Below, piece by piece: positions 8,810 through 31,474 of a DNA stretch of 64,000 bases (the stretch's first letter is position 1; the number at the start of each line of letters is the position of its first letter). The DNA comes from Salinisphaera sp. (GTDB taxonomy: Bacteria; Pseudomonadota; Gammaproteobacteria; Nevskiales; Salinisphaeraceae), in contig JAQIBT010000045.1 of NCBI GenBank assembly GCA_027858915.1, positions 1-64,000 on the forward strand, written 5' to 3'. The position numbers and the translations under genes were made by a program. The notes under the pieces are model-generated. The model saw nothing but the letters and a program-made list of their open reading frames with translations, was not told where the DNA came from and searched no databases.

Positions 8810-9709
8810 TCAGATCAGCATTTCTCGCGGATCAGCGAGCATGCGCGCGTAGTGAGTCAGAAAACGCGCGGCGTCGGCACCATTGATGACGCGGTGATCG
8901 TAGCTGAGGCTCAGCGGACAAAAAGCAGTTGGCGCGAACGCCTCGCCGTCCCAAACCGGCTCGACCGTAGTCCGCGTAAGACCCAGAATCGCGACCTCCG
9001 GCGGGTTTACGATCGGGGTAAACGATTGCCCACCAATACCGCCCAGATTACTGATCGTCATGCTGGCGCCAGCCATTTCGTCGGGACTCAGCTTTCGATC
9101 ACGCGCGCGTCCGGCCAGATCGATGATCTCGTCGGCGATAGCGAATATTCCTTTGCGGTCCGCATCCCTGATGACCGGGACCATCAGGCCATTCGGGGTA
9201 TCCACGGCAATGCCGATATGGATGTAATGCTTGAGCCAAAGCGTTTCGCCATCCGTGGAAAGCGACGCATTGAAACGCGGAAATATTCGCAGGCTGAGCG
9301 CCAGCGCCTTTACATGAAACGCAAGGCTCGACAGCTTGGTTCCACGCGCCTGTGCTTCATTCTTCAAGGAGCTCCGGAACCGCTCTATTGCCGACATATC
9401 GGCCCGGTCCTGATGAGTGACGGCAGGAATAACCTGTTGTGCGGCGCTCAAGTTGGTCGCCGCCAGACGGCTGAGACGCGAGGTCGGTTCGGCCTCGACC
9501 GGACCGAACCGGCTGTGGTCCTGATCCCACGGCGAGGTATCTGACCTCGGCGCTGCGGTCGGTGCGCTACTGCCACCGAGCTTGCGTTCCACGTCCGTTC
9601 GGTTCAACCAGCTCTGCCCAAGCTCGTGCGAGAGCGCATCCAGATCCACCTCGCGCTCACGAGCAAATCGACGGGTAGACGGGGACGCCAGGGTCTGGGG
9701 AGTCTGCAT
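8810..9709 (-). CDS. Dihydrolipoyl acyltransferase catalytic subunit without a lipoyl domain (E2 core)
   Basis: This gene encodes only the back half of an E2 protein. Residues about 5–45 are a peripheral-subunit-binding domain (ASPSTRRFAREREVDLDAL), followed by a short linker and a complete 2-oxoacid acyltransferase domain ending in the active-site motif SYDHRVINGADAARF. HRVING with Asn is the form I recall from Azotobacter and Pseudomonas AceF proteins, so it should be active. No lipoyl domain is present; the lipoyl arms are encoded on the separate gene at 11178–12548. The ATG at 9709 is preferred over a TTG at 9721; either way the start overlaps the end of the aldehyde dehydrogenase gene, implying coupled translation. 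Confidence 0.9.
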   Translation of the reverse strand: MQTPQTLASPSTRRFAREREVDLDALSHELGQSWLNRTDVERKLGGSSAPTAAPRSDTSPWDQDHSRFGPVEAEPTSRLSRLAATNLSAAQQVIPAVTHQDRADMSAIERFRSSLKNEAQARGTKLSSLAFHVKALALSLRIFPRFNASLSTDGETLWLKHYIHIGIAVDTPNGLMVPVIRDADRKGIFAIADEIIDLAGRARDRKLSPDEMAGASMTISNLGGIGGQSFTPIVNPPEVAILGLTRTTVEPVWDGEAFAPTAFCPLSLSYDHRVINGADAARFLTHYARMLADPREMLI

Positions 9710-9714
9710 ACGAT

Positions 9715-11181: not shown

Positions 11182-12548
11182 AGCAGGTGGCGCAGCGGGC
11201 TCTCGACGCGCTCGGCAAACGCGGTCAGCATCACGGCTGCCGCATCTGGACTCAGGGCGTCCTCATCGAACGCCAGACGCATTTCCAGACTGCCGCTGGC
11301 ATTGGCCTTGAAGACGGTCAGGGTCGGCACGCCACCAGCCCCAGGCACGTTGAACTCGGTCAACGGGCTGGCGCTCAGATCGTGTATGCGTACCGTCGGC
11401 GTCGTATCGTCCGCGTCCACGGTGCACTCAGCCGCCTGGGTCAGTCCGGTTCGATCGGGATCGACCAAAGTCAGCGGGGGGCGCCCGCTGCCCGGGGCGG
11501 CGAGGTGCACGACGATGGGTTGATCGCCCATATCGCTTGCCAGGGCAGACCGCCAGCTGCCTGCCACAAAGGCAGCCAGCAAAATACTCGCGGGTGTGGC
11601 GCCGTCGGCGCGGCCCGCAAGCCAACCTGCGAAGTCAGCAAACGCTGCTCCATCAACGGCAGCTCGCAGACTCGCGCTGGCTGCGATCGACGGCCTGTCG
11701 GCCACTGCGACCACCTTATCCAGGTCGGCCACATGAAACGGCTGCGGCACGCCCTGCCGGACCAACTGCCGCAGATCGATTCCGCGCTCTTGCGCCAGAC
11801 GCCGCGCCTTCGGCGACGCCAGAATTATTGCGCTACCGGGCGCCGGCATCGGCGTCCGGATCGCAGCTGCAGGCTGCTTGTTTTCTGCCCCTGCTGCCTT
11901 GGCCGACCTGATCGGTTCAGCAGGTTTGGGTTGCGGTGCGGCTGCCAATTTCTTTGCCGAGGGTGCAGACGAGGCCGTCGCATCCGGCGAATCGCCGATG
12001 ATAGCGACGGTCTCTCCGACCGGCACATCGGAACCGGCCTCGGCGCGGATCGCTACGAGATAACCATCGTAGCCAGCCTCAACCTGTACAACGGCCTTGT
12101 CGGTCTCGACGTCCATCAGATCGTCGCTTGCCTTGACGACATCGCCTACCTGTTTGTGCCAGGCCACGACCTGACCGGCATCCTGAGACATGCCCAGTGC
12201 CGGCATGATGACCTCGTACACGGTCCCATGCCCGGTGGAATCGGATGCGCTGGCCTGGTCTGCGGATTCTGCGCCTGCGACCGGCTTCGATGAGGTCGTC
12301 GTGGCCTCGGGTGAATCCCCGATCACCGCAACCACGTCGCCGATTGGGACGTCGGTCCCTGCCTCGGCACGAATCTCGGTGAGATAGCCGTCATGGCCTG
12401 CCTCTACCTCGACAACAGCCTTGTCGGTTTCGACGTCCATCAGAATGTCGCCGGCCGCCACCGCATCGCCTACCTGCTTATGCCAGGCCACGACCTGACC
12501 GGCATCCTGCGACATGCCCAGAGCCGGCATGATGATTTCATGCGACAT
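11178..12548 (-). CDS. Lipoyl carrier protein with two lipoyl domains, E1/E3-binding domain and inactive acyltransferase-like C-terminus
   Basis: The 456-residue product has two near-identical lipoyl domains (residues about 1–78 and 110–188), each with the lipoylation motif DVETDKA, lysines 43 and 151. A linker and a peripheral-subunit-binding domain follow (about 244–280, ASPKARRLAQERGIDLRQL). The last 170 residues resemble a shortened E2 acyltransferase domain, but where the active enzyme has DHRVING this protein has DEDALSP (about 428–434), so the catalytic His is gone. It therefore looks like a swinging-arm scaffold that works with the separate catalytic E2. It overlaps the E1 beta stop by 11 bp. 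Confidence 0.9.
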   Translation of the reverse strand: MSHEIIMPALGMSQDAGQVVAWHKQVGDAVAAGDILMDVETDKAVVEVEAGHDGYLTEIRAEAGTDVPIGDVVAVIGDSPEATTTSSKPVAGAESADQASASDSTGHGTVYEVIMPALGMSQDAGQVVAWHKQVGDVVKASDDLMDVETDKAVVQVEAGYDGYLVAIRAEAGSDVPVGETVAIIGDSPDATASSAPSAKKLAAAPQPKPAEPIRSAKAAGAENKQPAAAIRTPMPAPGSAIILASPKARRLAQERGIDLRQLVRQGVPQPFHVADLDKVVAVADRPSIAASASLRAAVDGAAFADFAGWLAGRADGATPASILLAAFVAGSWRSALASDMGDQPIVVHLAAPGSGRPPLTLVDPDRTGLTQAAECTVDADDTTPTVRIHDLSASPLTEFNVPGAGGVPTLTVFKANASGSLEMRLAFDEDALSPDAAAVMLTAFAERVESPLRHLL

Positions 12549-13533
12549 CGTGGAGTCTCCCTTCGACCACCGCGCGTACTCGCTCTACCACGGCATCGAC
12601 GGTAGGGACCGTAAGATCCTCCAGCACCGGAGAGAACGGCACCGGAACGTCCATCGCTCCGACCCTCTGTACCGGCGCATCCAGATAGTAAAAAGCCTTG
12701 TCGGCGATCCGACTGGCGATCTCTCCGGTAATTCCGTAGTTCTGATGGCCTTCGTCAATCACCATCGCGCGACTGGTTTTTCGGACCGAGGTGATGAGCG
12801 TGTCCTCGTCCAGCGGCACCAGCGTGCGCGGATCGATCACTTCCGCCTCAATCCCATCGGCTGCCAGCGTTTCCGCGGCTTTGAGCGCGACCTGAACCAT
12901 GGAGGACGTGGCAATCAGGGTTATGTCGCGGCCCTTACGCAGTACAGCCGCCTCGCCGAAGGGAATCAGATACTCTTCTTCCGGAACGGCAGCCTTCTCC
13001 TGGTACATCAATTTGTCTTCGATGATCACGACCGGGTTGTCGTCACGGATCGCTGTTTTCATCAGCCCCTTGGCTTCGTACGCCGAAGACGGCATGGCCA
13101 CCTTCAATCCGGGGATATGGCAAACCAGCGCGTGCAGCGACTGGCTGTGCTGAGCCGCCGAGCGGCGCGTCGCCCCCAGGTTCGTGCGTAGCGTCAACGG
13201 GACCTTGAGTTTGCCGCCAGACATATAAGACTGCTTGGCCGCCTGGTTACAAAGCTGATCCATGACCAGGAACAGGAAATCACCAAACATCAGATCAATG
13301 ATCGGCCGTGTTCCAGTCATCGCGGCGCCGACCGCAATGCCGGTGAAACCCGGCTCGGAAATCGGCGTGTCGATAATTCGGTCCGTGCCGAATTCCTCCA
13401 CCAGTCCGGACAGAACCTTGAACGGTGTTCCGGCTTCAGCAACGTCCTCGCCCAGCACAAAGGTCGTCGGATCGCGCCGCATCTCTTCGGCAATGGCTTC
13501 GTTTACGGCCTGAGACAGAGTTATTTCGCGCAT
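12538..13533 (-). CDS. 2-oxoacid/acetoin dehydrogenase E1 component, beta subunit
   Basis: The transketolase-like beta subunit of a thiamine-diphosphate-dependent E1. It has the family's opening MREITLSQAVNEAIAEEMRRD, the DTPISEPGFTGIAVGAAMTG region and the C-terminal VIDPRTLVPLDEDTL and VIDEGH segments. It forms an alpha2beta2 enzyme with the gene just upstream. The ATG at 13533, with AGGAA eight bases before it, is preferred over an upstream in-frame start because the family begins here; the gap to E1 alpha is then 7 bp. Family resemblance is to AcoB (acetoin cleavage) and PdhB; sequence alone does not separate these. Confidence 0.93.
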   Translation of the reverse strand: MREITLSQAVNEAIAEEMRRDPTTFVLGEDVAEAGTPFKVLSGLVEEFGTDRIIDTPISEPGFTGIAVGAAMTGTRPIIDLMFGDFLFLVMDQLCNQAAKQSYMSGGKLKVPLTLRTNLGATRRSAAQHSQSLHALVCHIPGLKVAMPSSAYEAKGLMKTAIRDDNPVVIIEDKLMYQEKAAVPEEEYLIPFGEAAVLRKGRDITLIATSSMVQVALKAAETLAADGIEAEVIDPRTLVPLDEDTLITSVRKTSRAMVIDEGHQNYGITGEIASRIADKAFYYLDAPVQRVGAMDVPVPFSPVLEDLTVPTVDAVVERVRAVVEGRLHDVA

Positions 13534-13540
13534 GACATTC

Positions 13541-14527
13541 CTATGCGTTTGCCGCGTAGACATGCATGTCTACCTCGGACAAGTCGGGATAAGAGGCTTC
13601 AAGGGCATACTCCACCGCTGCTTTGGCGTCGGCCTGCACCTGTTCGTCGATCGCCTCGAGTTCTTTCTCGGTAGCAATCTTCTGTTTGCGCAGCCAAGTG
13701 CCGAACAGCGCGATGGGATCACGATTGTCTTTCCAATCGGACTCTTCTTCCTTGCTACGGTAATAGGTGCGATTAATGTCGCCGACGTGATGGCCGTGGT
13801 AACGATAGGTATTGAGCAGTACAAAGAACGGCCCCTCGCCGGCTCGTGCCCGCGCTACCAGATCATCGGCCAGCGACTTGACCGCCAGCACGTCCTGGCC
13901 GTCCAGCTCATGGGCTTCAATGCCGAACGCCGTCGCTCGGGCGCACAAGTCCCCAGCTGCCATTTCAGACACATGGGTGTACTCGCCGTAGAGGTTGTTC
14001 TCGCAGACATAGATCGCCGGCAATGACCATAGCGACGCCATGTTCATCACTTCGTAGAGCAATCCCTGACCAAGCGCGCCGTCACCAAAGAAACAGACGG
14101 CGACGTCTTTCTTGCCCAGGAGTTTTGACGTGAGCGCCGCCCCGGTGGCAATACCCGCAGAGCCGCCGACAATGGCGTTGGCGCCCAGATTGCCGTTGTC
14201 CTGATCGGCGATATGCATCGAACCGCCTTTACCGCGGCAGTAGCCTTCTACCTTGCCCAGCAGTTCACAGAACATTTCACGGAAATGCGCGCCCTTTGCC
14301 ACACAATGGCCATGTCCACGATGGGTCGACGTAATGTAATCGGTACTCTCCAACGCTTCACAGATGCCAACCTCGGCCGCTTCCTGACCCGAGGACATAT
14401 GCGTCAAGCCCTGCATTTTTCCGGACAGATACAGCTGGTTGGCGTTATCCTCGAAAGCGCGAATTCGACGCATTTGACTGTAGATATGGAGATAACTCTC
14501 GCAGTCGTCTTTATTTTCAGCAGCCAT
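13541..14527 (-). CDS. 2-oxoacid/acetoin dehydrogenase E1 component, alpha subunit
   Basis: A 328-residue thiamine-diphosphate-binding alpha subunit. The cofactor motif runs from GDGALGQG to the closing NN (FFGDGALGQGLLYEVMNMAS…VCENN), and the HRGHGHCVAKG and GKGGSMH segments are typical of AcoA/PdhA. This subunit carries out decarboxylation (or C–C cleavage) and passes the acyl group to the lipoyl arm. It opens the complex genes E1 alpha, E1 beta, lipoyl-E2, aldehyde dehydrogenase, catalytic E2, E3. About 140 bp of non-coding DNA separate it from the FmdB-like gene upstream. Confidence 0.93.
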   Translation of the reverse strand: MAAENKDDCESYLHIYSQMRRIRAFEDNANQLYLSGKMQGLTHMSSGQEAAEVGICEALESTDYITSTHRGHGHCVAKGAHFREMFCELLGKVEGYCRGKGGSMHIADQDNGNLGANAIVGGSAGIATGAALTSKLLGKKDVAVCFFGDGALGQGLLYEVMNMASLWSLPAIYVCENNLYGEYTHVSEMAAGDLCARATAFGIEAHELDGQDVLAVKSLADDLVARARAGEGPFFVLLNTYRYHGHHVGDINRTYYRSKEEESDWKDNRDPIALFGTWLRKQKIATEKELEAIDEQVQADAKAAVEYALEASYPDLSEVDMHVYAANA

Positions 14528-15084: not shown

Positions 15085-16389
15085 CTAGTAGGCATTGGCA
15101 ACGAACAGTTCCTGGGCTGGGAACAGTGTGATCACACGACAGCCGTCTGCGGTCACGACGACCTCTTCTTCGATTCTTGCTGCGCCATTACCGTCAGCCG
15201 CAGGGCAATAGGTCTCAAGCGCAAACACCATGCCTTCCTGCAACTCGAATGGGTTGTCCAGGGACACGAGCCGGCTGATGATCGGCCGCTCGTGTAGCGC
15301 GAGGCCAAGTCCGTGGCCAAACTGGAGGCCAAAGGCTTCCATCTCGGAACTAAATCCAAAATCCTGAGCGCGCGGCCAGACCGCTGCGATCTTGTCCGTG
15401 GTGACACCCGGCTTGACCAGGTCGATCGCATTGTCTATCCACTCACGACATTGACGATAAGCGTCGGCCTGGGCGGTTGTGTATTTGCCCACATTCAGGG
15501 TCCGGTAGTAACAGGTCCGATACCCCATATAGGATTGGATGACATCAAAAAACGCTTGGTCACCAGGACGGTACATGCGATCGGTAAAGTTGTGTGGATG
15601 CGGATTGCAACGCTCGCCAGAGACGGCATTAATCGCCTCTACGTCATCCGAGCCATTGTCGTAGAGAAATTTGTTGGCGATCGCCACGAGTTCGTTTTCC
15701 CGCTTCCCAGGCTTGAGCTCTTCTGCTATCACCTGGTAGACCCCATCTACCATCGAAGCGGCCTGATTGAGCAGGATGATTTCGTCCTTGCTCTTGATCT
15801 GACGCGCATCGAGCATCACTTGTTGCACGTCGCGGATGTCCAGACCCTCGGCCTGCAGGGCAAACAGCATCGGCGGCTCAACGATATCCACACCGAGCGG
15901 CAGGGACGCCAGGCCCTCGGTTTTTAGCAGATCCGCGATCTCCTTGGCAGCATCACGGAATAAACCAGCGTCCGCGTTAACCGCGCCACGCAGGCCGAGC
16001 ATCCCGGCACGGCAATGATCGTTATCCAGCCACGGCGCATAGATCCGGTGATGGGCTGCTGCGGAACCGAAATCCCACAGATAAGGGTCCGAGTTGCCCG
16101 TGAACAACGCATACCGACAGAACTTGTCGCGTGTCCACTCACCAATGACGCTGCTGGTCAGGTACCGAATATTGTTGTTGTCGAAACAGAGAATCGCTGC
16201 GATATCGGAATCCGCGAGCGCCTGCCGCACGCGCGCCAGCCGATAACTATGCAAACGCTTGAAATCGACCCGCTCCTCGAAATCGACAGCCATTCTGCCC
16301 GGCGAGTCGATCGGCCTATCCCAATTCCAGCGTGGAAGAATATCCTCGCTCTGGCTCTCCGGCATATTGATTTTACTTTGAGCTGTCAT
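15085..16389 (-). CDS. M24-family (creatinase/prolidase fold) protein lacking one metal ligand
   Basis: 434 residues with an N-terminal creatinase-like domain (DNNNIRYLTSS) and a C-terminal pita-bread fold. Compared with active M24 metallopeptidases (five ligands D, D, H, E, E) it has D282, H359 in GHGLGL, E392 in ALET and E407 in RIEEEV, and the second His at 366, but position 293, eleven residues after D282 where the second Asp belongs, is Cys. So a normal di-metal peptidase site is unlikely. Some M24 proteins act outside peptide hydrolysis, for example creatinase and the DMSP lyase DddP, and the N-terminal half has a DddP-like feel. The catabolic setting favours a small-molecule role. Confidence 0.82.
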   Translation of the reverse strand: MTAQSKINMPESQSEDILPRWNWDRPIDSPGRMAVDFEERVDFKRLHSYRLARVRQALADSDIAAILCFDNNNIRYLTSSVIGEWTRDKFCRYALFTGNSDPYLWDFGSAAAHHRIYAPWLDNDHCRAGMLGLRGAVNADAGLFRDAAKEIADLLKTEGLASLPLGVDIVEPPMLFALQAEGLDIRDVQQVMLDARQIKSKDEIILLNQAASMVDGVYQVIAEELKPGKRENELVAIANKFLYDNGSDDVEAINAVSGERCNPHPHNFTDRMYRPGDQAFFDVIQSYMGYRTCYYRTLNVGKYTTAQADAYRQCREWIDNAIDLVKPGVTTDKIAAVWPRAQDFGFSSEMEAFGLQFGHGLGLALHERPIISRLVSLDNPFELQEGMVFALETYCPAADGNGAARIEEEVVVTADGCRVITLFPAQELFVANAY

Positions 16390-16430: not shown

Positions 16431-17234
16431 TTACTGAATAACCATGCCGCCATCAATCATGAGCAGCTGGCCGGTCATATAGTCAGAATCGGGGCTGGCA
16501 GCGAGAAACGCCGCGGTGCCGAGAATATCTTCGGGATAGGAATAGCGCTTCATCAGGATCATGTTCTCAGCAAGGGAATCCATGGACTCGCCTTCTTTCT
16601 CAAATTTCCCGATGGCGACAAGATCCTTGTCCAGCTGCTCCCATAGCTCGGTACGAACCACACCGGGGCCGTATCCATTGACGGTGATGTTGTGTTCGGC
16701 GAGCGCCTTCGCGCCGCCCTTGATCATCGCAAGTACTGCATGCTTGGAGCAGCTGTAAGGGATCACGTCATCAAAGACTTCACGTGAGAGAATAGAGCCC
16801 ACATTGATGATTTTGTAAGGCCCGTTGTCCTTGCCCTGAGCGATCATCTGCTTGGCTGCTTCCTGCATACAGATCAGCACGCCTAACGCGTTGACCTTCA
16901 TGATCTGATTCCAGTTTTCTTCTGTAATATCGAGGAACATCAGCGGCTTGTTGATTCCTGCGTTATTCAGAATAAGATCAAGACTACCGAAGGCCTCAAC
17001 CGTGGCCTCCACCGCAGCAGCGACTTCAGACCGATTGGTGACGTCTAACCTGGTTGCGATAGCCTCACCGCCGTTCGCTTTGATGCGCTCGACGACCTCA
17101 TTACAACCATCGATATTCAGATCGCCGACACAGACTCTGGCCCCAAGCGAGGCATAATGTTCTGCCACCGCAGCGCCCATACCTTGAGCCGCGCCCGTAA
17201 TAAGACAATTTCTACCTGCCAGTCTTTCGCTCAT
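16431..17234 (-). CDS. Short-chain dehydrogenase/reductase (SDR)
   Basis: A 267-residue classical SDR. The nucleotide-binding motif is TGAAQGMGAAVAEHY, the NNAG motif follows (LILNNAGINKP), and the catalytic Ser (VGSILS) and Tyr-x3-Lys (YSCSKHA) are all present. The acidic residue after the second strand (GDLNIDG) favours NAD over NADP. The start at 17234 has AGAGGAA before it; an upstream in-frame start is unlikely. It is the gene before the M24 protein, about 40 bp away, and probably oxidises a hydroxyl group of the imported compound. The particular substrate cannot be told. Confidence 0.92.
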   Translation of the reverse strand: MSERLAGRNCLITGAAQGMGAAVAEHYASLGARVCVGDLNIDGCNEVVERIKANGGEAIATRLDVTNRSEVAAAVEATVEAFGSLDLILNNAGINKPLMFLDITEENWNQIMKVNALGVLICMQEAAKQMIAQGKDNGPYKIINVGSILSREVFDDVIPYSCSKHAVLAMIKGGAKALAEHNITVNGYGPGVVRTELWEQLDKDLVAIGKFEKEGESMDSLAENMILMKRYSYPEDILGTAAFLAASPDSDYMTGQLLMIDGGMVIQ

Positions 17235-17681
17235 GGACTTATTCCTCTGATATCCGGATTTCCCCGAGTTTTTTGAAACAAATAGCATAGGGGACGCCTG
17301 TCTTTATCAATTAAAAACCTCGGCGCGCCAGGCTGCAACAGGCAGGAAGTTCGAAACGAATAAGTTCATTTTGGGGACTATGGAGCAGCCACAGAGAAGC
17401 GCGGTCAATCAGCGCACAGCTTTGGAAATCGAAAGTGAAAAGTTCATCCGCGCCGGGTATATCTTCGCCGTCGAATGACAACGGCGGCCCGCACTGCTGC
17501 AGTGCGCGGCCGGGGGAAGCTATTTGAGACAGAGAACGCGGATGCTCATCTGGTATTCGGCCGGAACATCTGCAGCGCCGTACATAGCAGCAGTCGTAAT
17601 GGCTTGGAGCCCGTTAATCGGTTTTGCGATCCAATCAAGATCAAGCACGCTCATTGATAACGGCTTATTTCGTGCGCAGGC
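17235..17681. other. Gap inside the catabolic island
   Basis: About 450 bp between the SDR and the Gfo/Idh/MocA gene, both on the minus strand. A 44-codon frame (17520–17654, minus, MSVLDLDWIAKPINGLQ…) can be read, with no ribosome binding site and no recognisable relatives. Otherwise I see nothing. The gap could hold a promoter for the downstream half of the island. Confidence 0.35.
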
Positions 17682-18819
17682 TCATGACGCCACGACCATA
17701 CGGTTGAGCTGTTGTGATGAGGCATGGATCGCTGCAACCGTGGCCTGGACGGCATAGGCTTCGGCAAAGTCCGGGAAGGCGTGTCCATCAGTCGCATAGG
17801 CCCGGAGTAGACCCGCCACCTCGATAATCTTGAGATCGTTGAATCCCAAATGATGACCCGGCGCTGGGCAGAATCGGTCGTAGGGCACATGCGTCGGGCC
17901 GGCCTCGATCCGCGTGAAGCCCTGCTGCCCGGAGGCCGCATCGGAGCGGTAGACCAGAAGTTCGTTCATCCGCTCCTGGCTGAAGCTTATAGCGCCTTGC
18001 GTACCAGTCACCTCGAATGACAGATCCATCGTCCGTCCGGTCGCCGCCCAGTTGGCCTCGACGCTACCAAGCTGCCCACCCTGAAACCACAACAGCGCAT
18101 GCGCGTGATCGTCGACCCGAACCGCTGCCGTCTTATCCGAGCCTTCGAAGACCGGGCGTTCGGGGTAGATGGTGGATGTTGAACCGCACACCGAGACAAT
18201 CGGGCCGACCATATACCGCGCCATGGATAGAATGTGACTGCCGATATCGGCGAGTGCGCCACCGCCTTCCGGATCGGTGCGGAAAGAATGCGGTGCCTCG
18301 GCGCGGGCCATATAGTTCTCCGCATGTCGCCCACGGAAAGAGGTCACTTCGCCGATCTCGCCAGCCTGCACCAGCTCGCGTGCCATCCGGACCATGGGAT
18401 TGCAAAGGAAGTTAAAGCCTACGAGATTGACCACGCCGGCCTGGGCGACGGCGTCGCGCATCCGAGCCGCCGACGCCAGGGTCGTGGACAGCGGCTTTTC
18501 GCAGTAGACGGCTTTGCCTGCTTGCGCGGCGGCCACCGCGATCGGCTCGTGCAGTTTATTCGGCGCGGTGATAGCGACAATATCTATATCAGGGTCCGCC
18601 ACCAGCATTCGCCAGTCACCCGTCGAACGACGAAAACCCAGAGTCGAAGCGGCCGATGCCGCACTTGTCTCATCCATGTCGGCCAGCAATTCCAATTGCG
18701 GCGCGACAGGCAGGTCAAACAGGCCGTTCACGGCACGAAAAGCGTTTGCATGACACTTGCCCATGAACCCGGCGCCCACCAGCCCGATCCGCACGGGTTT
18801 TTTCTCGGTTACGTTCATC
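17682..18819 (-). CDS. Gfo/Idh/MocA-family sugar/polyol dehydrogenase
   Basis: A NAD(P)-dependent oxidoreductase of the glucose–fructose oxidoreductase/inositol dehydrogenase family. The Rossmann motif is GLVGAGFMGKCHANAFRAV, the family's catalytic EKP is in YCEKPLSTT, and the C-terminal part has GGGALADIGSHILSMARYMVG with the conserved Asp and His. GGGAGGGA stands just upstream of the ATG at 18819, so I reject the longer frame beginning at 18947. It follows the ABC transporter ATPase gene and most probably acts on the imported sugar or a sugar acid. Members oxidise inositols, sugars and their derivatives; the substrate is open. Confidence 0.92.
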
Positions 18820-18949
18820 GTCTGGAATCCCTCCCTATTCCGCCATAACTGGCCGCTCTCGCAACACGAGCAGGACCTCCCTGGACTCGACCTACCGGAC
18901 GTGATCAATAACTTTGGGTACGGGACCACCAAGCGAAATCGAATCAAAT

Positions 18950-20476
18950 TCAGTCTTGAGGCGAGGCCGCATTCAGAAGCTTGTTCTCAGTCACATCACT
19001 ATGACTGAAGTCGCCGGTCAGACGTCCCTCACACATCGTAAGGATCCGTTGGCTTATACCCATGATTTCGGGCATCTCGGAGGAAATGACCAGCACCGCC
19101 AAGCCCTCCTCTGCAAGACGGGCGATAAGCTTGTGGATTTCGGACTTGGAGCCCACATCGATGCCACGCGTCGGTTCGTCGAGGATCAGCAGTTTGGGTT
19201 CGGTGGCAAGCCATTTGGCGATCACGAACTTCTGCTGATTTCCGCCACTGAGGTTGACTACTGGTTGTTTTGGGCCGGTAGTACGAATCTGGAGCGATTT
19301 CTTGTATTTGTCGAACAGTGCAGTTTCCCGCCCCCTTTGCATGAAACCGAACACATTGAGTTCGTTGACAAGGGGCAGCGTGGTATTGTCCCGGCCACCC
19401 ATCCCAAGCACGAGGCCTTGCCCCTTGCGGTCCTCTGGAACCAGCCCGATACCGAGTTTCATTGCTGCTTTTGGACTTGTGATCTGCTGGGGCTGACCAC
19501 GCCAGAAGATAGTACCGGCGTCTGGCTTGCGAATACCGAAAATGGTTTCGGCTACCTCGGAGCGACCTGCGCCGACCAGGCCATACATGCCCACGACCTC
19601 TCCTGCTCTGATATCGAAACTGATGTCGTCGATCAGTCCCGTAATGGTCAGACCCTCCACTCTGAGGAGCTCGTCCCCTGGTTCCGACTCGGCGCGCTCG
19701 AAATAAGAATCGAGCGATCGTCCGATCATACGATGGGTGATGTCGTCGGCATCCGTGTCCGCCGTATTCATGGTCCCCTGAGTCTTACCGTCTCGTAATA
19801 CTGTTATACGATCCGTAATCTCAAATATCTCGCTCATCTTGTGCGATATATAGACGATGCCGACGTCCTGCGCCTTCAGTTTTCGAATAGTCTCGAATAG
19901 CGCCTCTTTCTCCTGGTCGGTCAGTGACGCAGTCGGCTCATCAAAAATAACTACGTTGCAGTGAAAGGCATCTGCACGAGCAATCTCGACCATCTGCTGC
20001 TTGGCGATCGACAAAGAGCCGACGATGTCGCTGGCGCGAAAACTACAGTGCATATCCTTCAATACACGGTTGGTTTTCTCGTTGAGCATCCGCCAGTCGA
20101 CACGTCCGAAACTCTTCAACGGCATACTGCCAAGATATATATTCTCAGCGACAGACAACTCTGAGACCAGAGAAAGCTCCTGGTGAATCAGCAGAATGCC
20201 ACGCTCCTTGGCCTCCAGCGGATTGTTGTGCCGAACCGGCTCGCCCATATGACGAATGGTCCCACCATCCGGCTTATAGTTACCCGCCAGCACCTTCATC
20301 AGAGTGGACTTACCCGCTCCGTTTTCGCCGACCAGGGCGTGAACCTCGCCGGGTTTGACATCGAAGCTTACCTCGTCGAGTGCCTTGACTCCGGGAAAAG
20401 TCTTGATGACTCCCGACACCTCGAGGACGTACTCCGTCGCCGCCGATACGGCAGCCTGTGCGGCATTTGCAGTCAT
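18950..20476 (-). CDS. Sugar ABC transporter, double ATPase (RbsA/XylG/MglA type)
   Basis: 508 residues with two fused ABC domains. Domain 1 has Walker A GENGAGKST and Walker B VVIFDEPTAS; its signature is the weaker SIAKQQM. Domain 2 has a degenerate P-loop (GLVGAGRSE), the signature LSGGNQQKFVIAKWL and Walker B LLILDEPTRGID. This arrangement is diagnostic for CUT2-type monosaccharide importers. It powers the two permeases encoded just upstream. About 80 bp separate it from the binding-protein gene before it. The end overlaps no other gene. Confidence 0.95.
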   Translation of the reverse strand: MTANAAQAAVSAATEYVLEVSGVIKTFPGVKALDEVSFDVKPGEVHALVGENGAGKSTLMKVLAGNYKPDGGTIRHMGEPVRHNNPLEAKERGILLIHQELSLVSELSVAENIYLGSMPLKSFGRVDWRMLNEKTNRVLKDMHCSFRASDIVGSLSIAKQQMVEIARADAFHCNVVIFDEPTASLTDQEKEALFETIRKLKAQDVGIVYISHKMSEIFEITDRITVLRDGKTQGTMNTADTDADDITHRMIGRSLDSYFERAESEPGDELLRVEGLTITGLIDDISFDIRAGEVVGMYGLVGAGRSEVAETIFGIRKPDAGTIFWRGQPQQITSPKAAMKLGIGLVPEDRKGQGLVLGMGGRDNTTLPLVNELNVFGFMQRGRETALFDKYKKSLQIRTTGPKQPVVNLSGGNQQKFVIAKWLATEPKLLILDEPTRGIDVGSKSEIHKLIARLAEEGLAVLVISSEMPEIMGISQRILTMCEGRLTGDFSHSDVTENKLLNAASPQD

Positions 20477-20558: not shown

Positions 20559-21545
20559 CTAGAAAACGGGCCGTTGGTACTTGTCTATGTTTTTCTTTGT
20601 GATCGGTGGCGTGTCAATATAAGACGTCTCAGGCACACTCTGACCTTCCGCGACTTCGACAGCCGTTTTCAGTGCGTTCTGAGCATCTTCCACGGGCGAC
20701 TGCACGACGGAGCCGTAGTAGCAGCCATCCTTGATGGCATCGTAGCCAACCCCGAAATTGGTAGCCCCCGTAATCTTGATCCGGCCACAAGGGATACCCG
20801 CGCCTTTGATTGCGTTCAGCACCCCTGCACCCATGTTGTCATCGGCTGCGAAGACACCATCGATTTCCTTGCCATATTTGGTGATGAAACTCTCCATTAC
20901 GGACTGCGCCTTCGCCCGGTTCCAGTCCGCCGGCTGGGCATCCAGAATCTTGATGCCCTTGTGCTTGCCGACGGCTTCATCAAAGCCTTTTTCACGATTG
21001 ACGGCTGTGGCATAGCCCGGTGTCCCATTGATCACCACCACCTTGCCTTTGCCGTTTAGCGCTTTGACCATCATCTGGCCGGCAACGCGCCCCTCCTCGG
21101 TGGTGTTGGGGCCGGAAAAAGCGACCGTGCACTTGCGTCCAGCTTTGTCGATACGCGAGTTGGTGATCACTACCGGTATACCCGAACGTTTTGCACGGCA
21201 TACCGCAGGCACTACGGCTTTGGCGTTCGTCGGCCAGACGATCATTACATCAACCCGCTGTGCGGTCAGATCCTGGATCTGATTGGATTGACGAGCCGGG
21301 TCACCTTGAGGATCCAGTACGATAGCTTGGATACCCAGCTTCGCCGCGTAGTCCTTGAAGCTCTGCTCATAAGTCGTCTCATAGGCATCGACGCCCGCAT
21401 TGTTTTGCGTGATGCCAATTCGAACCTCGCTCAGCGGCTTCTTCAGGGGCTGCTTGAGCCATGAGGGAGCATCCGCAGCCGAGGCCACTGTGCACGCGGC
21501 GCACAACGCCACTGCTGCTGACACGGTTTTCAATGTGTTATTCAT
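20559..21545 (-). CDS. Sugar ABC transporter, periplasmic binding protein (second copy)
   Basis: A 328-residue periplasmic binding protein of the ribose/galactose (peripla_BP_4) type with an N-terminal signal peptide ending near ASAA. The fold features VRIGITQNN, LDPQGDPARQ, VDVMIVWPTNAKAVVP and GVFAADDNMGAGVLNAIKGAG are characteristic. TTGGAGGATTATA precedes the ATG. It is strongly similar along its length to the protein at 25505–26494 (shared WLK-PLKKPL, DPQGDP, QPADWNR-KAQSVME), showing a duplication. Both presumably feed the same permease/ATPase pair. Confidence 0.94.
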   Translation of the reverse strand: MNNTLKTVSAAVALCAACTVASAADAPSWLKQPLKKPLSEVRIGITQNNAGVDAYETTYEQSFKDYAAKLGIQAIVLDPQGDPARQSNQIQDLTAQRVDVMIVWPTNAKAVVPAVCRAKRSGIPVVITNSRIDKAGRKCTVAFSGPNTTEEGRVAGQMMVKALNGKGKVVVINGTPGYATAVNREKGFDEAVGKHKGIKILDAQPADWNRAKAQSVMESFITKYGKEIDGVFAADDNMGAGVLNAIKGAGIPCGRIKITGATNFGVGYDAIKDGCYYGSVVQSPVEDAQNALKTAVEVAEGQSVPETSYIDTPPITKKNIDKYQRPVF

Positions 21546-21641: not shown

Positions 21642-22658
21642 TCACTCGTTATTGAATTGCTTGTCCACGATCAGTGCGAGAATCAGGACGACTCCAAGCA
21701 GGACAAGTACGTAAAACGGCTGGACATGCATGAGGTTCATGCCATTACGCAAAACGCCCAGTGTGAGCACGCCACCCAGCGTGCCCCAGAGAGCGCCCGC
21801 GCCCCCCTGCAGTTTGGTGCCGCCGAGCACGACCGCGATAATCGTCCACAGTTCATAGTTCGTGCCCAGGTTTGGCGTCGCGGCACCCATTTGGGTTGAC
21901 ATCGTGATCCCGGCGACCGCCGCCATGAGCCCGGAGACCATGAAATTGATCACGATGTGACGCGACACTTTGACTCCGGCATTTTCTGCCGCCTGGCGAT
22001 TACCGCCGATGGCATAGGCTTCGCGTCCGTGACGAGTGCGCGAAAGTGCCCACTGTGCGAACGCTATGAACACCAGAAACAGAATGGCAATCAGGGACAC
22101 CGGACCAATCGAGATCATGCCGAAATTCATGAAACTCATGTTGGTCGCCGACAGGGAGTTCTCTCCGGTATAGACAAACACCAGTCCACGAATTCCGATC
22201 AGGCCCCCAAGCGTCACGATGAATGAGTGCACGCCAGTCTTGACTACGATGATGCCGTTTAGAAACCCGAGTAGCAGACCGGCCCCAAGCGCCCCCGTTA
22301 TGGCCACCACCAGACCATATTGCTGAAGGCCAATAGCAAGACATGCGCAGAGCGCGAGTGTCGATCCCACCGTCAAGTCAATCCCGCCGTTGATCATGAT
22401 CAGTGTCATACCGATCGACAGGAAGCCGATGAACGCACTCTGGACCAGAATGTTCGACAGATTGAATACCGTAAAGAAATACGGACTGCCGAAACTGAAG
22501 CCGATCAAGCAGACAATCAGGATCACCCAGATCGAATTACGGCCAACCCAGTGCAATAAAGAGCCACCCAGGAATCGTTCGTGCTGAGTGCACACCACAG
22601 ACTTCCGGGTTGGCGCATCCTGAGCCATGGACTTGTCAATCGAGTTTACGGATTTCAT
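21642..22658 (-). CDS. Sugar ABC transporter permease (first of the pair)
   Basis: An inner-membrane permease of the BPD_transp_2/RbsC type, 338 residues with eight to ten membrane helices and the family's GGIDLTVGSTLALCACL and GVHSFIVTLGGLIGIRG loops. The start at 22658 overlaps the stop of the upstream permease (ATGA), with GGGAG just before it, which rules out the longer frame. It forms the membrane channel with the gene at 22655–23623 as a heterodimer. Confidence 0.93.
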   Translation of the reverse strand: MKSVNSIDKSMAQDAPTRKSVVCTQHERFLGGSLLHWVGRNSIWVILIVCLIGFSFGSPYFFTVFNLSNILVQSAFIGFLSIGMTLIMINGGIDLTVGSTLALCACLAIGLQQYGLVVAITGALGAGLLLGFLNGIIVVKTGVHSFIVTLGGLIGIRGLVFVYTGENSLSATNMSFMNFGMISIGPVSLIAILFLVFIAFAQWALSRTRHGREAYAIGGNRQAAENAGVKVSRHIVINFMVSGLMAAVAGITMSTQMGAATPNLGTNYELWTIIAVVLGGTKLQGGAGALWGTLGGVLTLGVLRNGMNLMHVQPFYVLVLLGVVLILALIVDKQFNNE

Positions 22659-23623
22659 TCGAACAAACTCCCGCGTTTGGACGCTACATCGAGCCATACC
22701 GCGCCAATGATCACACCCCAGGTCACCAGCCATTGGACGTAATACGCGAACCCGAGCAACAGCAGACCGTTCTTGATGAAACCAAGAATAGTTATGCCGA
22801 TAACGGTCTTGAGGATTGTTCCGGACCCACCTAGCAGACTGGTACCACCGAGAATGATTCCGGCGAGAACCTGAAGCTCGTACCCCTGCCCGACGTTATT
22901 CTGAGAGCCCATCACACGCGAACCCAGGATAACCGCGGCCACTGCCACAGTCAGGCCGGACAGAACGTAGGCGCTAAATACGATACGTTTTGCATTTATC
23001 CCAGAAGCGCTGCTGGCGACCTCGTTGCCGCCAACCGCGTATATCTGTCGACCGTAGGCCGTCTTGGCCAGCACCACGCCCAACACCAGAGCGCCGCCAA
23101 GAAAGATCCATACGGGCACCGGAACGTCAAGGAAATAACCCCGTCCAAAGATCGCGAACCAGGTCGCGTCCGGGTCCGCAATGCCGACGTTCTTACCGCC
23201 GGTATATATCAGGGTGACGCCCTGCAACGCGGAGAGCATGCCGAGGGTGACAATCAAGGAATTCAGACGCACATAGCCGATCAATATTCCATTGACCGCC
23301 CCCACAAGAAGCCCGACCAGGAGCGCAACCAGAATGGCCGGCCCTGGACCGATCTTGTCGTGCAGACCAACCACGACAACCGTAGTCAGGGACAGCATCG
23401 AGCCGACAGACAAATCGAGTCGCCCGCTCAGGACCACAAACGTCACGCCCAAGGCCATCGTGCCCACGATCGAAACCTGCCGCAGCACCTGCAACACGTT
23501 CCCGATTGTCAGGAATGTGTCCGAATTCAGCGCCACAACGACCAAGAAAATCACGAAGGCGATTAGAATCCCTTGCTGGCGCGCCAAATCGGGCAAATTC
23601 ATCCGCTTGATTAATGCGTCCAC
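22655..23623 (-). CDS. Sugar ABC transporter permease (second of the pair)
   Basis: A 322-residue RbsC-type permease with GRLDLSVGSMLSLTTVVVVG and the LNSLIVTLGMLSALQG loop. It starts with GTG at 23623, with the strong ribosome binding site GGAGGAGA before it. Two different permease genes side by side mean a heterodimeric channel, unlike the single-permease ribose system of E. coli. It is the first gene of the importer block that continues with the second permease, the binding protein and the ATPase. Confidence 0.93.
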   Translation of the reverse strand: MDALIKRMNLPDLARQQGILIAFVIFLVVVALNSDTFLTIGNVLQVLRQVSIVGTMALGVTFVVLSGRLDLSVGSMLSLTTVVVVGLHDKIGPGPAILVALLVGLLVGAVNGILIGYVRLNSLIVTLGMLSALQGVTLIYTGGKNVGIADPDATWFAIFGRGYFLDVPVPVWIFLGGALVLGVVLAKTAYGRQIYAVGGNEVASSASGINAKRIVFSAYVLSGLTVAVAAVILGSRVMGSQNNVGQGYELQVLAGIILGGTSLLGGSGTILKTVIGITILGFIKNGLLLLGFAYYVQWLVTWGVIIGAVWLDVASKRGSLFE

Positions 23624-23788: not shown

Positions 23789-24337
23789 TTAGTCGCTTGG
23801 AAATTTCGCGTGCCAAAGCCGTCCGCGATACTCCGTTTCATAAGCCTTGCCCTCTGGATAGCTCACCAGTTCCAACTGCATGCCCCAGGGCGTGAGGAAA
23901 TACACCCATGCCTCACCGGCACTAGGCCCCCGCGTCTTGTACTCGGGGTCACCAAGAACAGTCAGGCCATGGCCACGCACATAGGCAACTGCCTTCTCCA
24001 TATCGTCCACGTAGAACGCCAGATGGTGGCCACCAATATCGCTGTTGCGCGGCGGCTCCTGCGCCTGTCCAGGGGCCTCATATTCGAACACCTCGAAGTT
24101 CGAACCACTCCCACAACGCAGCAGTCGGATTCCCTTGATACGAGCCTTTGGATCAACATTCAGTCGCCGTTCCATCCAATCGTCTCCGGCCGATATTGGC
24201 CCCATGGGATAAAACACCTCACAGCCGATCACATCACGAAAGAACGCAACTGCCTCGTCGAGGTTTGGCACGGTGAATCCAATATGATCCGTTCCACAGA
24301 GTCCCGGAATGCCTTTACCCACTTTTCGCTCAACCAT
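23789..24337 (-). CDS. VOC-superfamily protein (glyoxalase/dioxygenase-like)
   Basis: A 182-residue protein of the vicinal-oxygen-chelate fold with two beta-alpha-beta3 units. The four expected metal ligands can be placed: His in TDHIGF, Glu in NFEVFEY, His in GGHHLAFYV and Glu in MQLELVSY, so a metal site is probably intact. Members include glyoxalase I, epimerases and ring-cleaving dioxygenases. Set inside a sugar catabolic operon, an isomerase or lyase acting on an oxidised sugar is the most natural reading, but it is inference. GAGGGG precedes the ATG. Confidence 0.85.
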   Translation of the reverse strand: MVERKVGKGIPGLCGTDHIGFTVPNLDEAVAFFRDVIGCEVFYPMGPISAGDDWMERRLNVDPKARIKGIRLLRCGSGSNFEVFEYEAPGQAQEPPRNSDIGGHHLAFYVDDMEKAVAYVRGHGLTVLGDPEYKTRGPSAGEAWVYFLTPWGMQLELVSYPEGKAYETEYRGRLWHAKFPSD

Positions 24338-24682
24338 AAAGAAACCCCTCGTCCGTCCTCTCGCGACCTGCCCGTTTGGATTTTTTTGGGCGAATCGGGC
24401 TATTCGAAACTTATGCTTCGATTATCGGTCCAGTTTTTTAATATTGGAATAGGCAGTTATTCCGCTTTGGAGATTATCCAAACTGAATATTTTCCGAGTC
24501 CGAGATCAGTACTGGTATGTGTAAACAGCACTCTATTTAGTCAAAATAAAACGCCTCGGCAGGTGACTGTTCCTGCCAGATATCTGCGTAAACTTTGTGC
24601 CAGAACCGTTGGATTCAGCGACGGATTTTCGGTTGCATATCCGCCCTGCGCACGCAGCTGAGGCGCAATCGTGGCTTTCCGG
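24338..24682. other. Gap between the SDR and VOC genes
   Basis: About 345 bp of AT-richer DNA with no gene. It contains a hairpin with a T-rich end (see the terminator entry) close to the SDR stop, and the T/A-rich stretch 24410–24500 may carry a promoter for the VOC gene. Nothing else was seen. Confidence 0.4.
24545..24577 (-). terminator. Possible Rho-independent terminator after the SDR gene
   Basis: Read on the minus strand, GGCAGG and CCTGCC pair around an 8-nt loop, then come GAGGCG and TTTTATTTT. The stem is short (6 bp), so strength is uncertain. It would separate the first binding-protein/SDR unit from the rest of the importer genes. Confidence 0.4.
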
Positions 24683-25453
24683 CTACCACACGGTGTAGCC
24701 ACCATCGGCCATCAGAAGATGGCCCGTGACGCTACTCGCGGCATCGCTCGCCAGAAAGAGGACGACGCTGGAAATCTCCTCGGGTTCACTCATGCGTCCT
24801 ATCGGGACATTCGACATCCAGGCCTCCATCAGGCCACCGTTCCGACCTGCAGCCAGGGGCATATCCGTCGCCACGTAGCCCGGGCCGACTGCGTTGACAC
24901 GCACACCGTGCGGCGCCCACTCTGATGCAAGCACACGGGCCAAATGCGCGACGCCGGCCTTGGAAACGCTGTACGCGACATGCGACTGGGGCCTGACATC
25001 TACTACACCCGCCATAGAGGAGATGTTGACGATGCTTCCGCTTCGCTGTTCAACCATGTGCCGACCGAACTCGCGACAGCAGTAAAACACGCCGCTTAGA
25101 TTGACCTCCATCTGTCGCGCCCATGTCTCGTCGGTTGTTTCCAGTGCATCAGCGTTGATACAGATTCCGGCATTATTAACCAGCACATCGACTCGTCCCT
25201 GGGTACTGATAACTTGCTCTGCGGCCCACTTCACGGCTTCAGAATCCGCAACGTTGACCGGCACGAAACTCGCTTGGTAACCTAGGTCAGCTAGCGCCAG
25301 CACCGCCTTTTGACCCAACTCCGGATTCAACTCCGCTACAACCACCGTCGCGCCCGCCTCTGCCAATGTTCTGGCTATCGCAAAGCCAATCCCGCGACCA
25401 GCACCCGTGACTACGGCCACACGATTTTCCAAACTGAAAATTTTTCCGCTCAA
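24683..25453 (-). CDS. Short-chain dehydrogenase/reductase (SDR)
   Basis: A 256-residue classical SDR with TGAGRGIGFAIARTLAEAG, NNAG (LVNNAGICINADA), catalytic Ser (ISSMAGV) and YSVSKAG. It starts with TTG; AGGGGTG five bases upstream supports this, and there is no better in-frame ATG. It follows the first binding-protein gene by about 50 bp on the same strand and probably belongs to the same transcript. The E in VAELNPE at the end of the second strand is more compatible with NAD. Substrate unknown, likely a sugar or polyol derivative. Confidence 0.92.
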   Translation of the reverse strand: MSGKIFSLENRVAVVTGAGRGIGFAIARTLAEAGATVVVAELNPELGQKAVLALADLGYQASFVPVNVADSEAVKWAAEQVISTQGRVDVLVNNAGICINADALETTDETWARQMEVNLSGVFYCCREFGRHMVEQRSGSIVNISSMAGVVDVRPQSHVAYSVSKAGVAHLARVLASEWAPHGVRVNAVGPGYVATDMPLAAGRNGGLMEAWMSNVPIGRMSEPEEISSVVLFLASDAASSVTGHLLMADGGYTVW

Positions 25454-25504: not shown

Positions 25505-26494
25505 CTACCACGTAGGCTGACTAAAGTTCTTGATGGTTTCGGCATCAACCTTGGGCGTCGGAATATGCTGCACCTTCGGAACAGGCTTGCCTTCGGCAAC
25601 ACGAATCGCTGTCTGGATCGCAAGTTTTGCGTCATCACTGGGCGACTGCCAGACAGAACCCGTTTCCCATCCGTTCTTGATGGCTGTGTAGCCCTGACGG
25701 AACATGTTCGCCGTCACCAGCTTGATGCGACCCTTCTTTATTCCCGCACCCTGAATGGCATTGAGGACACCCAGACCCATGCCGTCATCCTCGGCGTAAA
25801 CGCCATCGATTTTCTTACCGTATTTGGTCAGGTAGGCCTCCATGACCGACTGGGCCTTACCGCGATTCCAGTCGGCCGGCTGTTTATCGAGAACCTTGAT
25901 CTCGGGGTGCTTCTTGATGACATCCAGGAAACAGGATTCACGGATCATCGCTGTGGCGTAGCCAGGCGTGCCAAGCACCAGGACAATCTGTCCCTTGTCA
26001 TTGAGCGCCTTGACCAACATCTCGGCTGCTTTGCGGGCCTGTCCACAATCGTCCGGGCCAGTAAAGGCCACGGTATATTTGCGTGCTGATTTCTCGATGT
26101 GCGAATTGGAAATGATCACGGGAATGCCTGCCGCGTGCGCGCGGCGAATCGCCGGTGTCACCGCCACAGCGCTCGTTGGCCAGACCACCATTGCATCCAC
26201 GTGCTCAGCGATCAGGTTTTGAATCTGGCTGAACTGTTTGGAGGGGTCGCCCTGCGGATCCATGATTGTGGCCTTGACGCCCAGCTGCTTGGTATATTCG
26301 GCCGCCGTATCCGCATAACGCGCCTGATAGGAATTTGATTCCGGATACAGCACCGTGATTCCGAGCCGAATCTGATCGAGCGGCTTTTTCAGGGGCCCCT
26401 TAAGCCAATCGGGTTGATCAGCAGCCGCAGCGCTCAACGCAAATCCGGCCAGCGCCACAACTGCAATAACGCGTCTAAAAGTGTAAAAATTCAT
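25505..26494 (-). CDS. Sugar ABC transporter, periplasmic binding protein (first copy)
   Basis: A 329-residue paralogue of the protein at 20559–21545. A signal peptide (VALAGFALSAAA) is followed by WLKGPLKKPLDQIRLGIT, DPQGDPSKQ, VDAMVVWPTSAVAV and DWNRGKAQSVMEAYLTKYGKKIDGVYAEDDGMGLGV. GAGGAGG precedes the ATG. It opens the importer region of the island, with no ATPase or permease of its own, so the two binding proteins may share one channel and widen its substrate range. Differences in the ligand-pocket stretch (LYPESNSY against NNAGVDAY) fit that idea. Confidence 0.94.
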   Translation of the reverse strand: MNFYTFRRVIAVVALAGFALSAAAADQPDWLKGPLKKPLDQIRLGITVLYPESNSYQARYADTAAEYTKQLGVKATIMDPQGDPSKQFSQIQNLIAEHVDAMVVWPTSAVAVTPAIRRAHAAGIPVIISNSHIEKSARKYTVAFTGPDDCGQARKAAEMLVKALNDKGQIVLVLGTPGYATAMIRESCFLDVIKKHPEIKVLDKQPADWNRGKAQSVMEAYLTKYGKKIDGVYAEDDGMGLGVLNAIQGAGIKKGRIKLVTANMFRQGYTAIKNGWETGSVWQSPSDDAKLAIQTAIRVAEGKPVPKVQHIPTPKVDAETIKNFSQPTW

Positions 26495-27027: not shown

Positions 27028-28725
27028 TCAGTAATGGCGGTGAGCACGCATTAGTTGATCGATTTGCGACTGGGCTCGTGACAGCGCATGGGATGGTGTG
27101 ACGTCACCACGCATCATGTCATGTATCTCTCGGCCGAGAACGCGCACGATGTCATTGAATTCGGGCACTGGCGGCCGCTGCCAGAACTTGAGTCGACCCT
27201 GCTGCGCCAGGTTATCGACTGTCTCGATGATCTGGCTCATGTTTCTAACCTCCGGGTCAGCGTTGACGCTGAAACGGGGACTCACAAGGCACCCCTTCTG
27301 CATATAAAATTTCGTCACTGCAGGGGACGTGAGATATTTGATCACGCGCCAAGCCAGATCAACACGTTCCGGCGCAATATTGGCCGGGATCCCGAATGCA
27401 TAGCCACCCATTGGAGATATGCTGGTTCCTCCCGCCCCATGCGGGTGGGCCAGGTAGCCGGCCTTTCGATAGGCCGGCGATTCGGGGTTCAGATCGAAGC
27501 GCGCTGCACGGCCGGACCAAGCATAGGCGAATGCCACGTCGCCATCACTGAACCGCTGCACGGTCTCGTCCCAGGCCAGCTCAAGGATGTCACTTGGCGC
27601 AAAATCCTTTAGCCTCAGAAGATAGTCGGCCGCAGCAAGGCCTTCTGGCGTGTCGATGCAGGGGCGCATGTGTTCGCCCTGAATGCAGGAAAGATCGAAG
27701 TCACCGTTCACAAATGGCAAATCAATTGGCGGACGGCCAAAGTCCCCCATGATCTGCATGAACATATGGGCAATCGGGGCCCCAGCGGCGGCACAGAACG
27801 TTATTCCACCAAGGTCCGGACGTCTCCTGCGCAGTGTAGAGAGCGCTTCCAGTAGATTATCTGTCGTTTCTGGCGGTTCGATATCCTCTGCCTCGAGGAT
27901 ATCGCGCCGATAGAACAGAAGCTCCGGGGTGGGCTCGATCGGCACGCCATACTGCACGCCATCATACGAGGACGCATCCCAGGCCGCAGGCTGGAAATCT
28001 GAAGGATTGAAATTACCGAGGGCTACTAGATCATCTATCGGGTGCAACACGTTGCCGCGGTGATACTCGCCAAGCCACGGCAGATCGAAATCGATAATGT
28101 CGTAATTGGACAACTCCTCGCTTGCATTCTCCAAGGTGAGTTCACGTAGTTGGTCCAGACCGACAACGGTGATATCGACATGGCCGCCCAGCCACTGCTC
28201 AAGATCTCCGGTGACTCGCTGCAGGATAAGAAAAGTCTGGTCGTCGTTTGTCAGGAAGCGCAAGGTATTGTCGACGCCGATACCTTGCCTCAGAACAGTC
28301 GGCGCGGGGATGATATTGGCAGCAAGGTAAGATGCACCGAAATAGTAATTGCCACGGCCCTCCTCATCCATGGGGAAGCCAAACGTCGTCGCCACGAGAT
28401 GCTTCATATCTAGTGCGTATTGATGAAACCGGCCGACCAGTTCTTCGCTTGGGTGCAGAGAGAATGATTTGCCAGTCACGGTGCGAGCACGCTTGATGAC
28501 CAAGCCTTCCTCGATCATATGGTCGATTTTTCGTACGGCTGTGGTGTACGGAAAATTGGTACATTGGGCCAGGCTGGTCACCGTCACCAGCTTGTTTTCC
28601 AGATGGCGCCGCATGACGAACAGCACCATATCCCAAATCGGCTCCGTAATTCCCAGATGCTCCGTTGAGAAGCCGCGTCCTTTCTCCGCAAAAGCGATAA
28701 TTGTTTGCAACTCTTCTCTAGTCAC
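27028..28725 (-). CDS. Fusion of winged-helix DNA-binding domain and solute-binding-protein domain (predicted regulator)
   Basis: The N-terminal 110 residues look like a MarR-type winged helix: VTVTSLAQCTNFPYTTAVRKIDHMIEEGLVIKRA, a recognition helix followed by a wing. Residues about 130–560 resemble a family 1 extracellular solute-binding protein, with YDIIDFDLPWLGEYHRGNVLHPIDDL, GVPIEPTPELLFYRRDIL and WRVIKYLTSPAVTKFYMQKG. There is no signal peptide, so the binding domain is cytoplasmic and would sense an imported ligand. GTG at 28725 is the preferred start; a GTG at 28755 adds ten residues. It is the only plausible regulator of the 7–27 kb island, at its upstream end. Confidence 0.85.
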   Translation of the reverse strand: MTREELQTIIAFAEKGRGFSTEHLGITEPIWDMVLFVMRRHLENKLVTVTSLAQCTNFPYTTAVRKIDHMIEEGLVIKRARTVTGKSFSLHPSEELVGRFHQYALDMKHLVATTFGFPMDEEGRGNYYFGASYLAANIIPAPTVLRQGIGVDNTLRFLTNDDQTFLILQRVTGDLEQWLGGHVDITVVGLDQLRELTLENASEELSNYDIIDFDLPWLGEYHRGNVLHPIDDLVALGNFNPSDFQPAAWDASSYDGVQYGVPIEPTPELLFYRRDILEAEDIEPPETTDNLLEALSTLRRRRPDLGGITFCAAAGAPIAHMFMQIMGDFGRPPIDLPFVNGDFDLSCIQGEHMRPCIDTPEGLAAADYLLRLKDFAPSDILELAWDETVQRFSDGDVAFAYAWSGRAARFDLNPESPAYRKAGYLAHPHGAGGTSISPMGGYAFGIPANIAPERVDLAWRVIKYLTSPAVTKFYMQKGCLVSPRFSVNADPEVRNMSQIIETVDNLAQQGRLKFWQRPPVPEFNDIVRVLGREIHDMMRGDVTPSHALSRAQSQIDQLMRAHRHY

Positions 28726-29497: not shown

Positions 29498-29579
29498 TGA
29501 TACTCACTCACCTGGGCCGAAACTGCGCGGGTCGTCGGGTTGTTAGCGCTCGCCAGCAGGGGCAAGGATTCATACCGCA

Positions 29580-31408: not shown

Positions 31409-31474
31409 GACAAAGCCCTCTTCCGTGCGTGAATTCCGGAGCCCGACCGGACTCCGGATCAAAACGACCAGGGC

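Follow-up and report, generated by a model that had tools for sequence, protein, structure and literature searches.

The fusion gene and the catabolic island beside it

The window analyzed here, a 64,000-nucleotide stretch of Salinisphaera sp. DNA, carries on its minus strand an intact open reading frame (27028-28725, without internal stops) for a protein in which a predicted winged helix-turn-helix (wHTH) is joined to a solute-binding protein (SBP) domain. The gene, the parts of its product, and the surrounding features are listed below by their positions in the window.

27028..28725, minus strand: gene of the predicted wHTH-SBP fusion regulator, GTG start, 565 aa
28378..28725, minus strand: N-terminal MarR-like winged helix, residues 1-116 (AlphaFold2, structure and profile matches)
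28270..28377, minus strand: linker, residues 117-152 (from pLDDT)
27031..28269, minus strand: family-1 solute-binding (Venus flytrap) domain, residues 153-565 (SBP_bac_1, Foldseek)
25505..26494, minus strand: Peripla_BP_4 sugar-type SBP with a leader-like N terminus (PF13407, E 2.5e-58; hydropathy 2.47)
24683..25453, minus strand: SDR oxidoreductase (Pfam)
24472..24492, no strand assigned: candidate operator GATTATCCAAACTGAATATTT, top motif match in the 64 kb
23789..24337, minus strand: VOC/glyoxalase-family protein, the first gene downstream of the candidate operator
22655..23623, minus strand: sugar-type ABC permease (BPD_transp_2)
21642..22733, minus strand: sugar-type ABC permease (BPD_transp_2)
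20559..21545, minus strand: second Peripla_BP_4 substrate-binding protein
18950..20476, minus strand: ABC ATPase with two ABC_tran stretches
17682..18947, minus strand: Gfo/Idh/MocA dehydrogenase, levoglucosan-dehydrogenase-like, under that model's cut-off
16431..17288, minus strand: SDR, 2,3-butanediol dehydrogenase-like, under that model's cut-off
15085..16389, minus strand: M24 metallopeptidase-fold enzyme
8810..14527, minus strand: E1 alpha, E1 beta, lipoyl protein, SSADH-like aldehyde dehydrogenase, and E2 catalytic domain
7161..8711, minus strand: dihydrolipoyl dehydrogenase-like protein (E3)

A second in-frame GTG for the fusion gene lies at 28755; we favored the start at 28725 because the N terminus of the relative L045 (MTREELLRIL) aligns in register with that of the window protein (VTREELQTII). 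The gene runs in the same direction as the operon, and about 2.5 kb separate it from the candidate operator. In the gap between it and the Peripla_BP_4 gene, positions 26721-26948 are 72% identical to C36:14065-14287 in the same genome and are perhaps the remnant of a mobile element.

Just upstream of the fusion gene, 28808-34414 encodes DUF2848, DctP, D-glutamate cyclase, and LysR regulator genes by Pfam, together with two TRAP permeases that were named by eye only. The LysR gene (33521-34414), about 5 kb further upstream, corrects the first-pass annotation, which had placed the fusion at the head of an island with no other regulator.

The winged-helix head and the solute-binding domain

The fusion protein is 34-46% identical to its relatives in the two alignments that we made, and AlphaFold2, run on a 38-row alignment, modeled it with a mean pLDDT of 87.5. 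Residues 117-136 of the linker fell below a pLDDT of 50 and are probably disordered, as judged from this model. The head modeled alone had a mean pLDDT of 88.2 and a winged-helix topology, with helices at residues 3-15, 31-42, 49-54, 60-72, and 94-115 and wing strands at 76-80 and 88-92. In a VIA-align search, MepR was the top row (Z 11.4, rmsd 3.0, 100 residues), a score to be read with care since a Z under about 13 may reflect just a common arrangement in mostly helical models; the 50 rows listed were mostly MarR-type, including DNA-bound structures, with a few others (AF1382, TubR, MotA). Foldseek matched the head model best to an EmrR homologue (E 3.4e-4). On the predicted model, therefore, the head has the MarR winged-helix topology.

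The sequence match to MarR regulators is weak. In the full-length window protein, Pfam MarR_2 aligned to residues 33-80 with E 0.0014 and 19.1 bits, short of the 27-bit cut-off, and the best MarR_2 score obtained for the protein was 22.6 bits against the same curated value. With the head alone as query, MarR_2 reached E<=0.1 in 32 of the 38 family members (best 1.8e-7), and the head profile searched against PDB chains gave a best E of 0.03, to a SlyA-like regulator, the others being worse. We do not file the protein as a MarR member despite its fold, because the defining MarR_2 score falls short. It shares the winged-helix topology with flanking helices seen in MepR, HpaR, and the EmrR homologue; however, most of the MarR chains found in the search are about 125-170 aa long, which leaves no room for an SBP, whereas the fusion adds a domain of about 410 residues. 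No LysR (HTH_1) or LacI head was found in the fusion protein at E<=1 with Pfam, and the same search did find HTH_1 in the LysR gene at 33521-34414.

In the second part of the protein, Pfam SBP_bac_1 (PF01547) matched residues 183-471 with E 1.3e-24 and 88.2 bits, above the curated cut-off of 26. By sequence, the closest solved chains were two family-1 sugar-binding proteins: 5iai, with E 7.6e-25, and 1eu8, a trehalose/maltose-binding protein, with E 2.6e-24. Foldseek returned the same two chains for the modeled domain (5iai with E 4e-30 and a TM of 0.90 by target length; 1eu8 with a TM of 0.85). The AlphaFold2 model contains a complete two-lobed domain at about residues 153-565, with pLDDT mostly over 85. 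Residues W217, W385, G440-G441, and R517 show no variation across the 38 aligned rows and match the same residues in 5iai; the domain has both the complete fold and the conserved motifs in common with family-1 sugar SBPs. NCBIfam had no model over its cut-off for the fusion protein.

The fusion differs from family-1 transport SBPs in being joined to a DNA-binding-type head and in having no signal-peptide-like leader. We estimated the latter with a simple hydropathy measure rather than a signal-peptide predictor: within the first 45 residues, the highest 15-residue value was 1.40, compared with 2.01-2.63 for the three leader-bearing SBPs of the window. Among the relatives, the median was 1.0 and the highest value 2.15, each taken as the maximum over all candidate starts of a locus. 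By this sequence measure, the protein appears to lack the export signal of an SBP that serves an ABC importer. Thus, the MarR-like winged helix, the complete family-1 domain, and the missing signal peptide that the first-pass annotation had read from the DNA all stood up to profile, fold, and hydropathy analysis.

Distribution and gene neighborhood of the family

We searched for relatives in one genome per species, obtained 434 pattern matches and 419 relatives, and kept the best 80 loci. The head profile matched 80 of these 80 (worst E 4.4e-40) and was likewise found in all 43 loci outside the set from which the profile had been built. Of 244 genomes from one order of relatives, 40 contained the head, and all 51 head matches in them sat in open frames of at least 594 aa. 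The hosts are many bacteria, mostly marine. The window's own class had the head in one of 274 genomes, the window's own, and among 61 relatives the protein was found at E<=1e-20 in one, again the window's own genome. In a sample of 398 genomes of the phylum, 28 matched the head at E<=0.001, and six reached E 1.1e-17 or better, including the window's own and one class member, G461. A tblastn search of plasmid records gave 515 with a match, a number that may include many SBPs without the head; 42 of them spanned 80% or more of the query, each with an identity below 60%. Judged from these sequence matches, the fusion is a widespread family and not a singular occurrence, and we infer from its patchy presence that it was acquired by transfer.

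In a tree of 86 rows, the window protein joined a clade of eleven (L045-L052, L054, L055, and L083) with a support of 91, and two of the eleven are Vibrio penaeicida. Its exact place is unsure because its branch is long. L087, which has a stop four codons before the end of the excised frame, was omitted.

The genes around the fusion recur with it. At least 4 kb of sequence was available on both sides in 65 of the 80 loci. Homologues of the island's ABC genes lay within 10 kb in 77 of 80, some just about 30-40% identical; a Peripla_BP_4 gene was adjacent in 72, being divergent and directly upstream in 58. The island's SDR was directly downstream in 61 loci, and 53 combined the divergent SBP/sugar-ABC operon, the SDR, and M24 or E1 genes. 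The window's island is built from homologues of these neighbors, but with the regulator facing the same way as the operon. The gene order from E1 alpha to E2 is repeated in many relatives. In the window, the conserved SDR-M24-E1 alpha-E1 beta-lipoyl-SSADH-E2 operon occupies 8810-17288; M24 or E1 genes were found near the regulator in 60 of 80 loci. ThuA genes were also seen alongside the SDR, M24, E1, E2, and SSADH genes.

Of ten plasmid loci with annotation, L036, L037, L039, and L044 had both halves of the neighborhood; L038 had the downstream half, its record ending on the other side, and L035 the transporter half only. The fusion genes of L040-L043 adjoin different operons, so the ligands probably differ between clades. 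An intradiol dioxygenase gene was found in L035, L040, L041, and L042, accompanied by a maleylacetate reductase gene in L035, L040, and L041.

Operator-like palindromes and the proposed mode of action

Operators of MarR regulators are short palindromes, and the fusion family is predicted to be alike in this respect. The divergent regions of 62 of the 80 loci were usable (18 were dropped), and in them we found an ATCCA-N3-TGGAT palindrome. Its core TCCA-N3-TGGA occurred in 47 of the 62, while any dyad of the same size reached at most 7 in each of five Markov resamplings. With a matrix built from 58 sites, the best site scored at least 15 in all 62 regions, a count that is partly circular. In 56 of 62 regions, a second site (score at least 5) stood at a spacing of exactly 21 bp, the next commonest spacing being found in 8; in some regions there was also a third, weaker site at a distance of 83-106 bp. 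The 62 regions are not independent because they come from related species. We also examined a held-out set of 28, made up of the 18 dropped loci and the ten plasmid loci, some of them close kin of training species so that independence is partial: 20 had a site of at least 17 in a promoter zone, compared with 6 for the best of 200 permuted matrices. These promoter zones make up 7.8% of the held-out sequence yet contain 32 of the 42 hits at or above 17. In L035, L037, L039, and L044, about 120-160 bp separated the best sites from the SBP gene downstream of them; in L036 the distance was 274 bp. In the rhizobial loci, a variant palindrome, ATCCG-AAA-CGGAT, precedes the gene adjoining the regulator (L040:10833 and L041:10825), hinting that head and operator co-evolved.

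In the window, one site stands out. The candidate operator at 24472-24492 scored 20.4 with the first matrix (next in the 64 kb, 11.1) and 24.7 bits with the refined one (next, 14.9); the predicted start of the VOC gene, first in the permease operon, lies about 135 bp downstream of it. Among 300 resampled windows one reached the first score, as did 1 of 20,000 when only the intergenic region was considered; the refined score was reached by none of 400 resampled windows and by 3 of 1000 permuted matrices. In the clade nearest to the window, the sites of Vibrio penaeicida and L045 precede the permease gene. The tandem partner 21 bp from the window site is absent, and the only site nearby is a weak one (4.6) 16 bp away. 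The matrix scan of the window found no family motif before the regulator gene or at 26495-27027, so the promoter at 26495-26600, earlier proposed as a target, gave way to 24472-24492 as the best match. A weak candidate (17360-17380, score 9.8) precedes the SDR-M24 operon. Genome-wide, the loose motif pattern was not enriched, with 3 matches versus 6 for the pattern reversed. Downstream of the E3 gene, the stretch 6446-6509 holds a pair of lower-scoring motif-like sites (13.1 and 14.9 bits) separated by 43 bp.

We propose that the fusion is a cytoplasmic one-component transcription regulator. Its MarR-like head, presumably acting as a dimer, would bind ATCCA-N3-TGGAT-type palindromes upstream of sugar-type ABC transporter and catabolic operons. 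The family-1 SBP domain would close on an imported substrate or early product, perhaps a small polyol or sugar-like compound, and closure would change the grip of the head on DNA, most likely relieving repression. The layout is that of a one-component protein, with a putative sensor and a predicted DNA-binding domain in a single chain without a leader. We put the probability of the core of this reading, a DNA-binding regulator with a sensing SBP and either sign of control, at about 80%, on the strength of the domain make-up, the missing export signal, the conserved neighborhood, and the operator-like palindrome conserved in relatives. The neighborhood and palindrome also lend support to the view, taken from the first-pass annotation, that the protein is the ligand sensor of the island.

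Other explanations share part of this evidence. The protein could be a regulator whose SBP domain binds no small molecule, serving instead as a scaffold or sensing transport activity through another protein; the domain has no known ligand, and the adjacent transporter owns an SBP of another Pfam family, Peripla_BP_4. We judge this unlikely, because the two-lobed domain is complete and confidently modeled and keeps the invariant residues that it has in common with a transport SBP. Nor is it probable that the winged helix binds no DNA and acts through proteins, as its weak match to MarR might suggest: the basic residues R65 and R79 are invariant, K86 is kept at 90% or more, and palindromes are conserved where the family sits. 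A normal periplasmic SBP whose start codon had been miscalled would agree with database labels: among the plasmid rows listed, 24 of 30 bear the annotation "extracellular solute-binding protein" (one has another label and five have none under the match). We rejected it as extremely unlikely on the basis of hydropathy and of the head, which is kept at the protein level in every one of the 80 loci.

The sign of control is a separate matter within the core reading, with which a ligand-responsive activator is compatible. Tandem sites two helical turns apart also suit activation or looping, as would the weaker third site in some regions; established MarR-type regulators, however, are mostly repressors, and we regard activation as the less probable, if possible, variant of a sensing, DNA-binding regulator.

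LysR and LacI are one-component regulators that sense through a periplasmic-binding-protein fold. The fusion follows the same principle, with a different head and a different type of binding domain. In PMC4618731, SBP_bac_1 is given as a sensing domain of Azospirillum histidine kinases; these are two-component systems, whereas here the SBP joins a DNA-binding head directly. Other papers describe SBP_bac_3 in c-di-GMP proteins (PMC8846402) and an SBP fused to the membrane domain of a transporter, not to a regulator (PMC6207618); SBP_bac_10 in PMC8567305 is not relevant to the fusion, and the passages of PMC5882156 considered here mention neither SBP nor solute. We did not find the fusion described in the literature searched, a scope outside which most subscription journals and supplements lie, and we found no named class for it in Pfam, NCBIfam, or that literature.

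Overall, we think it quite likely that the family is a widespread, unnamed class of one-component regulators, in which a captured cytoplasmic family-1 SBP serves as sensor, a MarR-like head would read tandem palindromes two helical turns apart, and the protein responds to the substrate of a transporter with an SBP of a different family. The neighboring transporter is of the BPD_transp_2/Peripla_BP_4 type, a further difference from the family-1 sugar SBPs of ABC transporters. With 419 relatives in the scan and the head confirmed in the 80 kept, the family is sizeable. The predicted operator and regulon, together with transport cousins of the sensor that have solved structures, make ligand and mechanism testable at once, and the fusion lends itself naturally to use as a biosensor for small nutrients. 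The family is the likely regulator of a catabolic pathway that is common and, as far as found, uncharacterized, and it is easily overlooked because the label "extracellular solute-binding protein" misleads.
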